Source: Candidatus Acidiferrales bacterium
GTDB taxonomy: Bacteria; Bacteroidota; Ignavibacteria; Kryptoniales; JAKASW01
Direction: 5' to 3'
NCBI GenBank assembly: GCA_035515795.1
Contig: DATJAY010000003.1
Location: 248,001-312,000, forward strand
Length of the DNA: 64,000 nucleotides
Part shown: one piece after another, positions 60,401 through 64,000 of the stretch
Position numbering within the stretch: the stretch's first letter is position 1
How the letters are laid out: each line of letters starts with the position of its first letter
The notes under the pieces: generated by a model
Databases searched by the model: none
The model's input: the letters and a program-made list of their open reading frames with translations, nothing else
What the model was told of the DNA's origin: nothing
Program-made: the position numbers and the translations under genes

Positions 60401-61447
60401 TTACTTCAAAATACTTTGTCCATTGTATTGGACCATTTTGAGTTTCTCTACGTCGAGGTTCTGAATATTCTTGGGGAGCGGCGCGTAGTCCAGTGCGGTT
60501 GAATATTTTTGTCCTTCGGTGACAGCCCATTGCATAAATTCAACAGTAGCTTTTCCTTTCTCATACTCTGTCTGGTTCCTGTAAATTAGCAGCCAGGTTG
60601 CACTGGAGATCGGGTAAGAATCTTTTCCGGGGGCGTTGGTGATCGAGAACCTTAAGTCTTCCGGCAAAGTCTTGGCTGCATTCGCAAGAGCTTCGGTAAC
60701 CCCGGAGATCGATGGGTGAACAAATACGCCTTCAGCATTCTCGAGGTCTGCAAATGAAATGTTGTTTTGGAGGGCATAGATCAACTCGACATATCCGATA
60801 GCTCCGGGAGCACGTGATACCTGTCCGGCGACTCCCTCGTTCCCTTTTCCGCCGATTCCTACAGGCCAGTTCAAGCTGGTCGACTTTCCCACTTTGTCTT
60901 TCCACTCGGAGCTTACTTTTGAGAGGTAGTCGGAGAATATATATGTCGTTCCGCTTCCGTCTGCGCGGTGAACCACAATAATGGGGATGTTAGGGAGATC
61001 AACGCCGGGATTAAGCTTCTTTATGCTCTCGTCGTTCCATGTTGTAATTTTGCCCAGGTAAATATTTGCAATTGTTTCTCCGTCAAACTTCAACGTTCCT
61101 GTCACTCCGGGTATGCTGTAGGCGATGACCACGGCGCCAAGCGTCTCAGGGATGTGGAGAATGGGACCATGTGCCGAGTCGGCCGCGTGCATCTGCTCTT
61201 CTGTCATTGGAGCGTCACTTGCCCCCCAATTGACCGTCCCCGCGATCATTTGTTTTATCCCGCCTCCGCTTCCGATGGACTGATAGTTGATCTGGATATC
61301 CGGTTTCATATTGTGATATTCATTTGACCATTTTGAAATCAAGGGATAAGGGAAGGTTGCCCCGGCTCCATTGAGTATGGTCTGTGCGTATGTTGCTGCT
61401 ATTGACATCGCCATGATAGCAGTTACAACCGCGACTCGTTTTAGCAT
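60401..61447 (-). CDS. pstS: Phosphate ABC transporter substrate-binding protein PstS (canonical copy)
   Basis: 348 aa. Signal peptide (residues 1-21, ending AATYAQ). Periplasmic phosphate-binding protein: GAGATFPYPLISKWSNEY, YQSIGSGGGIKQM, GASDAPM and the phosphate loop HRADGSGTT with Thr167, matching the E. coli RxDxSGT ligand set. Third gene after the porin and the other pstS, but with its own Pho-like repeats upstream (61578-61616) and own terminator. The pstCAB permease genes are not in the window. Paralogous to the protein at 61746-62789 along its entire length. Confidence 0.94.
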   Translation of the reverse strand: MLKRVAVVTAIMAMSIAATYAQTILNGAGATFPYPLISKWSNEYHNMKPDIQINYQSIGSGGGIKQMIAGTVNWGASDAPMTEEQMHAADSAHGPILHIPETLGAVVIAYSIPGVTGTLKFDGETIANIYLGKITTWNDESIKKLNPGVDLPNIPIIVVHRADGSGTTYIFSDYLSKVSSEWKDKVGKSTSLNWPVGIGGKGNEGVAGQVSRAPGAIGYVELIYALQNNISFADLENAEGVFVHPSISGVTEALANAAKTLPEDLRFSITNAPGKDSYPISSATWLLIYRNQTEYEKGKATVEFMQWAVTEGQKYSTALDYAPLPKNIQNLDVEKLKMVQYNGQSILK

Positions 61448-61577
61448 AGTTTGTCTCCTAATGTTTGTGATTAGTTAAGCGTACGTTTAGAATCTATAGA
61501 CCAAAAAATAAATGCAGGCTTGTTTACCTTCTAGCACTCTAATGCATCTCTAATTTAACATGCCGACGTGACGTGTA

Positions 61578-61616
61578 GGTTAAGTCTTGGTTAAGTAGAC
61601 GTAAACTATGGTTAAT
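61578..61616 (-). promoter_or_regulatory. Pho-box-like direct repeats upstream of the canonical pstS
   Basis: On the minus strand CTTAACC occurs at 61595-61589 and 61584-61578, an 11-base period, with a third ATTAACC at about 61616-61610. ACACGTCACGTC follows at 61576-61565. TTAACA-like boxes spaced by five bases are the known form of PhoP/PhoB sites in several phyla. The same elements precede the porin gene (63964-63990). Confidence 0.6.
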
Positions 61617-61672: not shown

Positions 61673-61715
61673 AAAAAAACGGGGCCGTAGTTCCTTTTGG
61701 TGAACCTTGGCCCCG
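61673..61715 (-). terminator. intrinsic terminator after the first pstS
   Basis: On the minus strand CGGGGCC (61715-61709) pairs with GGCCCCG (61686-61680), with inner GTTC/GAAC pairing, then seven T (61679-61673). It ends the porin - pstS transcript 31 bases after the stop. Confidence 0.85.
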
Positions 61716-61745: not shown

Positions 61746-62789
61746 TTACATCAAACTCTTTCCATCGTAATTCACTTTTTGGAGAAGCTCTAACTCCATC
61801 TTTTGAATGGGCTTCGGGATCGGTGCGTAATCGAGCGCCGGTTCCATTTTTTGGCCATCCGTAAGTACCCAGTTGAGGAACTTGACGGTCTCTTCTGCAA
61901 TTTTCTCGTCTGTCTGATTGACGTATACGATCAGCCATGTCGCACTCGAAATCGGGTAAGAAGTTTTTCCAGGTGCGTCGGTAATCGAGAACCTCAAGTC
62001 CGCAGGGACAATTTTTGCTGCGTTCGCTGCTGCGTCGCTGACGCTTTCAATTGTCGGATGAATGAATTCGCCTTCTTTATTCTTGACGGATCCGAACGGC
62101 ACGTTGTTCTGGAGGGCGTATATCAGGGTCACATACCCGATCGAGTAAGGGGTTTGCTCTACCTGTCCGGTAACTCCCTCATTTCCTTTCGCGCCTATGC
62201 CGACGGGCCAATTAACACTCGTTCCTTTACCGACCTTGTCTTTCCATTCCTGAGAGACCTTGCAGAGATAATCGACGAAGATGTAAGTGTCGCCGCTGCC
62301 GTCTGAGCGGTGCACAACAACGATCTGCTGGTCAGGAAGATTGACGTCGGGGTTGAGTCCCTTGATCGCCGGGTCGTCCCATTTCGTTATGTTGCCGAGG
62401 TAAATGTTTGCAATTACCTCTCCCGTAAATTTAAGTGTCGCATCAACGCCCGGAATGTGGTATGACACTGCAACGGCTCCCATTGCTTCGGGAAGGTGAA
62501 CCACAGGGCCGTGGGCTTTTTCGCAAGCAGCGATCTGCTGATCATTCAACGGGGCATCGCTTGCGCCGATTTCTACCGTACCGGCAGTCAACTGATTGAT
62601 TCCGCCGCCGCTCCCGATGGACTGATAGTTAATCTCGACATCAGGATGTGCTTTATGGTAGTCGTTAGACCACTTTGAAAACATGGGATAGATGAATGTT
62701 GACCCGGCACCGTTAATTACGGTTTGACCGTGTAAAAGGGCGGCTGAGACGAATACAGCCGCCACTACCATTAGAAATCTTTTTTGCAT
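61746..62789 (-). CDS. pstS: PstS paralogue with altered phosphate-binding loop
   Basis: 347 aa. Signal peptide (residues 1-21, ending LLHGQ). Same fold and length as the neighbouring PstS and visibly collinear (GAGSTFIYPMFSKWSNDY, YQSIGSGGGINQL, GASDAPL, LRFSITDAPGKTSYPISSAT). The ligand loop reads HRSDGSGDT: Asp167 stands where Thr is expected, a residue that contacts phosphate in E. coli PstS. This could change affinity or ligand. GGAGGAG lies upstream of the ATG. Follows the porin gene by 75 bases and is probably co-transcribed with it. Confidence 0.92.
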   Translation of the reverse strand: MQKRFLMVVAAVFVSAALLHGQTVINGAGSTFIYPMFSKWSNDYHKAHPDVEINYQSIGSGGGINQLTAGTVEIGASDAPLNDQQIAACEKAHGPVVHLPEAMGAVAVSYHIPGVDATLKFTGEVIANIYLGNITKWDDPAIKGLNPDVNLPDQQIVVVHRSDGSGDTYIFVDYLCKVSQEWKDKVGKGTSVNWPVGIGAKGNEGVTGQVEQTPYSIGYVTLIYALQNNVPFGSVKNKEGEFIHPTIESVSDAAANAAKIVPADLRFSITDAPGKTSYPISSATWLIVYVNQTDEKIAEETVKFLNWVLTDGQKMEPALDYAPIPKPIQKMELELLQKVNYDGKSLM

Positions 62790-62864: not shown

Positions 62865-63923
62865 TTAGAACGTTATGAAAAACGTAGCTCTTCCGATGAC
62901 ATCGGCCTTTGACCCGGATAAACCGTATGCTACATATTCGACGTTCGGCATCAAGTGGACATTCTTTCTGACACTCCAGTCGAGAGCACCAACTACTAGA
63001 TTCTGAACGCTAGTTCCGGCAACCGTGTTCTTGTTGTCGGCATCCGGAGTATACATATCGTACCTGGCGACGAGACGGAGGTTATCTATCAGACCTACCC
63101 AACCGTTCACACTGAGACCGTTCTTCTTTGTGGTCGAGCCACCAGCACCGTTAATTCCATTCAAGAAATACTGTGCGCCGAGGCTGAACATGTCATTTGC
63201 ATAGTTCACAATGACATCGCCTGTTCTATTGAAGACGCTTACGCCCGTTCCATTGTATTGTCCGTTCAGCAGAATAGTGAATTGCTTTACAGGGTTAATC
63301 TGCAGATAGAGATAGGCGGCTTTGTATTTACTAGTTGTGGGAGAGAGAGCGCTGTTTCCACTGTTGTTCCCAACGAGCAATCCGGCCGTGAAAGCATCGG
63401 AGAATTTCTGGTTGTATGAAATTCCTAGATCCCTCGAAGAAGAAATCCCATGAAGATCCTGGATTGTTTTCTCCAATGACCTATAACCGAAAATTCCTTC
63501 AGCCATATTGATTTCCGGCGTTCCTTGCAAACCAATTATAATATTTGCACCATCAGTGACATTTTTCCAATTGATGAAAGCGTCCTTGACCATAACGGAT
63601 AGTTTACCATTAGACGTACCCGTTGCGGTTGGAAAATTGGATGTACTCGGATCGGACTCTAAACGGAATCTCGCGCTGAAATCCTGAGCTATGTCGTAAT
63701 CTGTGGTGAGATAAATACGCCTATAATCAAAAGCCTGCATGGCTTTCTGTAATCCTCCTGATGGAGAATAGTTGGAGGTCGACGCGACTCCTAAGTTAGC
63801 CGCGTTGATCACATAGTAGTAATCACCGAAGAATAGCCCGGAAAATTTCGGAAGATTCTGAGCGGATGCCATTCCTGCAAAAAGCAGAACGGCGGCAAGA
63901 GTATAGATTTTACGCAAATGCAC
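62865..63923 (-). CDS. Porin-like outer membrane beta-barrel
   Basis: 352 aa from GTG 63923 (AAAGGAG seven bases upstream). Signal peptide (residues 1-21, ending GMASAQ). Regular alternating beta strands throughout (RIYLTTDYDIAQDFSARFRL, AAYLYLQINPVKQFTILLNG) and a C-terminal strand ending GRATFFITF with the terminal Phe of outer membrane proteins. Size and style match phosphate-selective porin (OprP/OprO)-type proteins, and the placement upstream of two pstS genes behind Pho-like repeats makes phosphate uptake likely. Annotation as porin is by architecture. Confidence 0.75.
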   Translation of the reverse strand: MHLRKIYTLAAVLLFAGMASAQNLPKFSGLFFGDYYYVINAANLGVASTSNYSPSGGLQKAMQAFDYRRIYLTTDYDIAQDFSARFRLESDPSTSNFPTATGTSNGKLSVMVKDAFINWKNVTDGANIIIGLQGTPEINMAEGIFGYRSLEKTIQDLHGISSSRDLGISYNQKFSDAFTAGLLVGNNSGNSALSPTTSKYKAAYLYLQINPVKQFTILLNGQYNGTGVSVFNRTGDVIVNYANDMFSLGAQYFLNGINGAGGSTTKKNGLSVNGWVGLIDNLRLVARYDMYTPDADNKNTVAGTSVQNLVVGALDWSVRKNVHLMPNVEYVAYGLSGSKADVIGRATFFITF

Positions 63924-63963
63924 TGTAACTCCTTTTTTAGAACTAAAATTAACCGGTGACGTT

Positions 63964-63990
63964 GACGTGTTTGTTAAGGCTATGTTAAGG
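63964..63990 (-). promoter_or_regulatory. Pho-box-like direct repeats upstream of the porin gene
   Basis: On the minus strand CCTTAACA occurs at 63990-63983 and 63979-63972, an 11-base period (TTAACA-N5-TTAACA), followed by AACACGTC at 63971-63964. This is 40-70 bases before the GTG start. Confidence 0.65.
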
Positions 63991-64000
63991 ATTTGTAAAA

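Follow-up and report, generated by a model that had tools for sequence, protein, structure and literature searches.

The window, a stretch of 64,000 nucleotides from the genome of Candidatus Acidiferrales bacterium, contains two adjacent pstS genes, both located on the reverse strand. The first, at 61746..62789 (–), encodes a periplasmic phosphate-binding protein of 347 amino acids with an N-terminal signal-like stretch, and the second, its paralogue at 60401..61447 (–), encodes a protein of 348 amino acids; they are named here Asp copy and Thr copy, respectively, after the residue that differs in their phosphate-contact loops. Both score well above the cut-off of 205 bits of the TIGR00975 equivalog model (392.8 bits for the Asp copy and 388.7 bits for the Thr copy). 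The AlphaFold2 model of the Asp copy (pLDDT 91.2) has a type II periplasmic-binding fold like that of the solved PstS, and the top 20 Foldseek matches of this model are all PstS/PhoX proteins, with E-values down to 2.8e-39. By sequence, the closest named relatives belong to one Bacteroidetes bin and one Candidatus Kryptoniota bin. A separate PF12849 protein is encoded at a contig end (G000:C12:325025-325744, L003), behind an ExbB/ExbD/TonB-like cluster.

An earlier note on this DNA had described the two proteins as aligning residue for residue and, in fact, they give a single ungapped alignment over 347 residues, with 61.7% identity. The loops and the numbering of Asp167 that it reported are also correct on reading both ORFs: the phosphate-contact loop is HRSDGSGDT in the Asp copy (residues 160-168, 62286..62312 (–)) and HRADGSGTT in the Thr copy (60944..60970 (–)). 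In E. coli PstS, Thr141 is a phosphate contact, and the codon of Asp167 (62289..62291 (–)) falls at exactly this position, as the note had proposed, when the contacts are mapped onto E. coli mature numbering, a mapping verified on an E. coli pstS gene. The Thr-to-Asp difference between the two PstS copies of the window is confirmed as real. The remaining phosphate contacts, namely T10, F11, S38, D56, R135, D137, S139 and G140, are identical in both paralogues, and 141 differs. Thr at 141, which is usual but not required in PstS, is absent from the Asp copy, whose pocket holds an Asp at this position together with the equivalent of Asp56, that is, two aspartates as in the PstS-1-like Asp168 type. 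Asp56 of E. coli PstS is the residue discriminating phosphate from sulfate; in distant PstS relatives its position is occupied, in an automatic alignment, by Glu (L072, L073, L102 and L105) or by Val (L091).

An outer-membrane porin-like gene, probably a distant relative of Porin_O_P (62865..63923 (–)), is located 75 bases upstream of the Asp copy. Its assignment is based on synteny and on weak PF07396 matches, found in five of seven orthologues (best E-value 4.2e-5) and not in the window copy, and its structure model, of low confidence, is all-beta. The porin-like gene is kept beside pstS(Asp) in all the relatives inspected and the order porin-like gene, pstS(Asp), pstS(Thr) is conserved, the copy in first position being of the Thr type in the genome G012. 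No phosphonate or arsenic genes were recognised beside the Asp copy. On a Mycolicibacterium crocinum plasmid (L134:214-1497), a pstS of the PstS3 type adjoins arsA, the gene of the arsenical pump ATPase. Between the two pstS genes of the window, a terminator-like inverted repeat followed by a T run (61673..61715 (–)) was read by eye, and it is present in the relatives inspected.

The PHO box is an 11-nucleotide direct repeat located upstream of the genes of the Pho regulon (PMC4415409). A pattern search identified PHO-box-like 11-bp direct repeats upstream of the porin-pstS(Asp) unit (TTTACAAATCCTTAACATAGCCTTAACAAACACGTCA, 63963..63999 (–)) and upstream of pstS(Thr) (TTTACGTCTACTTAACCAAGACTTAACCTACACGTCA, 61569..61605 (–)), and a further PHO-box-like site upstream of pstCAB (L045 7584-7620); all three show the four-unit 11-bp direct repeat of PHO boxes. 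Even at 3 mismatches, these are the only sites in the 4.1 Mb genome, in which a reversed control pattern gives 2 sites. The pattern was written from the genome's own three sites, whose zero mismatches hold by construction; the sole independent results are that no further site turns up and that matches recur across the family. A looser pattern matches 24 sites in 13 genomes, all upstream of porin(-pstS), pstS(Thr) or pstC by position, several of them assigned from coordinates alone. The three sites of this genome, all at Pst genes, outline a compact predicted phosphate-starvation regulon. Given these sites and the terminator-like repeat between the copies, the two pstS genes appear to be transcribed as separate units within one regulon.

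The permease genes are found on another contig, in a pstC-pstA-pstB operon without pstS, and the PstB of this operon is the only one over cut-off in the genome. Likewise, a single PstC over cut-off was found in each of 11 of the 13 related genomes and none over cut-off in the remaining two drafts. A low-affinity PHO4-type transporter is also encoded in the genome.

The adjacent pstS pair is present in all 13 genomes of the genus, which is Kryptoniota-related, and the Asp-type copy in 11 of them, G009 and G012 carrying Thr in both copies. Conservation of Asp167, a check that the earlier note had proposed, is complete, with Asp in 11/11 orthologues of this one genus; the codon is GAC in nine and GAT in two, a synonymous change that leaves the amino acid constant, and the orthologues compared are 78-82% identical to the window copy. 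Asp kept in 11 genomes leads us to reject an assembly or sequencing error as its source. The contacts T10, F11, S38, D56, R135, D137, S139 and G140 are invariant across the 11 Asp orthologues, and all of these apart from D137 are retained in every row of the alignment of 11 Asp and 13 Thr proteins. Searching for the motif R-x-D-G-S-G-D-T-[FY] gave matches in 11 genomes of the genus, whereas 281 further genomes sampled from the class gave none; Asp at 141 was likewise absent from about 45 PstS of bacteria and archaea outside the genus, obtained by similarity or out of the phylum sample, with other phyla unevenly covered, and from nine plasmid-borne PstS. One case was found outside the genus, on the viral contig IMGVR_UViG_3300031788_001278 (L139:1765-2949), which encodes a PstS-1-like protein with the loop HRTDGSGDT and, after it, two transporter permease frames; this pstS adjoins phage tail and baseplate genes and, instead of being phage cargo, may lie at the edge of a prophage.

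The Asp proteins group into a single clade (SH-aLRT 100) with a long stem branch (0.31) in a tree built from 40 PstS, on which the state at 141 changes once; the tree contained no PstS-1, and common descent of the Asp copy with PstS-1 is not claimed. The upstream copies of G009 and G012 form a separate branch. They represent a third PstS type with Thr at 141 in the upstream position (L017:43-1134 in G009 and L028:78-1136 in G012), and that of G009 has the loop HRAEGSGTT, with Glu at the position of E. coli Asp137. Gene conversion between the copies in G012, whose Thr copy has a stretch resembling the Asp copy (FVDYLCKVS...KGTSVNWP), was considered and found no clear support from nucleotide windows. 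The Asp and Thr clades are separated by 32 fixed differences, including the pocket-adjacent A9S, P12I, A136S and E195T, and, together with the long stem of the Asp clade, these suggest that more than affinity may have changed.

Asp at 141 is a known pocket variant and its proposed meaning is already in print. M. tuberculosis PstS-1 (1PC3, 7DM1) has the loop HRSDGSGDT letter for letter, with the second pocket Asp, and resembles the model of the Asp copy over the whole fold (TMq 0.83-0.85, with 36-37% identity in the structural alignment); however, two complete Pst systems are present in M. tuberculosis, as against one PstCAB over cut-off for both PstS here. An E. coli PstS carrying Asp141 (1PBP, 1OIB, 1IXG) shares this one replacement and the pocket around it; its sequence reads RADGSGDS where E. 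coli has RADGSGTS, and the PDB title of 1PBP speaks of fine tuning of specificity, but this is a laboratory mutant, crystallised decades ago, whereas the Asp copy is a natural paralogue. E. coli wild-type PstS (1IXH, 2ABH) shares all the other phosphate contacts and the TIGR00975/PF12849 family, but has Thr141 and is encoded by a single pstS directly before pstC. In Synechococcus WH8102, the paralogues PstS1a, PstS1b and PstS2 also differ at one pocket contact within one genome; there, unlike here, the contact is Thr10/Ser and the reported effect is on affinity, with a Kd of 0.44 vs 3.3-4.3 uM, about tenfold, phosphate still being the best ligand (PMC10846223). The novelty lies in the setting: within one genus, the members of a Thr/Asp pair apparently share one permease and one regulatory site.

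The interpretation offered in the earlier note is supported in part. The solved proteins with Asp141 (1PBP/1OIB/1IXG and 1PC3/7DM1) are phosphate-binding proteins, so the carboxylate alone does not exclude this ligand. With these solved proteins, and with the Synechococcus paralogues as a precedent for a one-residue pocket change that goes with altered affinity and an unchanged ligand (PMC10846223), we consider that the Asp copy too binds phosphate and differs in affinity or pH response. As judged from sequence, the Asp167-PstS is probably a true phosphate-binding protein of high affinity, belongs to a pair of paralogues that feed a single PstCAB under shared phosphate-starvation control, and is most likely tuned in affinity or pH. 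We infer phosphate as its ligand, the sharing of the permease and the regulation by phosphate starvation, and hypothesise that Asp167 tunes affinity or pH response. Phosphate starvation would induce the expression of both copies under common PHO-box-like control, and both proteins would hand phosphate to the one PstCAB permease. As in M. tuberculosis PstS-1, Asp in place of Thr would put a carboxylate where the hydroxyl contact was; phosphate would remain the ligand, and the change would most likely adjust the affinity or the pH range of the Asp copy, perhaps in favour of H2PO4-, and let the two paralogues serve under different conditions.

A sharper form of this explanation, tentative and on balance doubtful, is a division by protonation state, with the Asp copy taking mainly H2PO4- at lower pH and the Thr copy both forms. 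The second carboxylate in the pocket and the strict retention of Asp in the clade are in its favour, and an equal proposal exists for M. tuberculosis, in which two Asp in PstS1 suggested a preference for monobasic phosphate and one Asp in PstS3 for the dibasic form, with acid phenotypes of the pstS1 and pstA2 mutants (PMC4996455). G009 and G012, however, manage with Thr in both copies, and an in vitro test cited in PMC4996455 gave no gain in affinity of the purified protein at low pH, which also counts against the pH part of the preferred explanation; the reference given there is Wang 1994, the 1PBP paper, and the test may thus concern the E. coli protein. The carboxylate may yet select a protonated oxyanion, as the earlier note had it; the idea was already published for PstS-1 vs PstS3, with this cited test standing on the negative side.

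The Asp could instead be a nearly neutral change in a redundant duplicate retained for dosage, which we regard as unlikely. In E. coli PstS, residue 141 uses its backbone NH as well as its side chain, so that Asp may be tolerated, and E. coli PstS bearing Asp141 did indeed yield crystals; but Asp persists in every orthologue despite the divergence noted above, the change at its codon is synonymous, and Thr to Asp takes two base changes from any Thr codon. Much less probable is a switch of the Asp copy to another oxyanion, such as arsenate, phosphite or methylphosphonate. It could draw on the one pocket residue changed among the 32 fixed differences, but the PHO-box-like site and the apparently lone PstCAB are common to both copies, the neighbouring porin appears distantly related to phosphate-selective porins, the structurally solved proteins with Asp141 are phosphate binders, and genes for phosphonate or arsenic went unrecognised beside the Asp copy. 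The division between phosphate and arsenate or phosphonate envisaged in the earlier note is left unsupported by this shared control and permease.

The affinity- or pH-tuned phosphate receptor is thus the reading that we prefer. It is conceivable, although rather improbable, that a natural pair of receptors differing at 141 captures H2PO4- and HPO4(2-) separately for one permease and makes uptake robust to pH. Should the two proteins share out phosphate according to protonation state or affinity, they would offer a clean natural comparison in the same cell, with apparently one permease and shared control, and would address the question raised by M. tuberculosis PstS-1, that is, the effect of a second pocket aspartate. 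Otherwise, the pair would be a tidy case of specialisation between PstS paralogues, in a lineage that has received little study.
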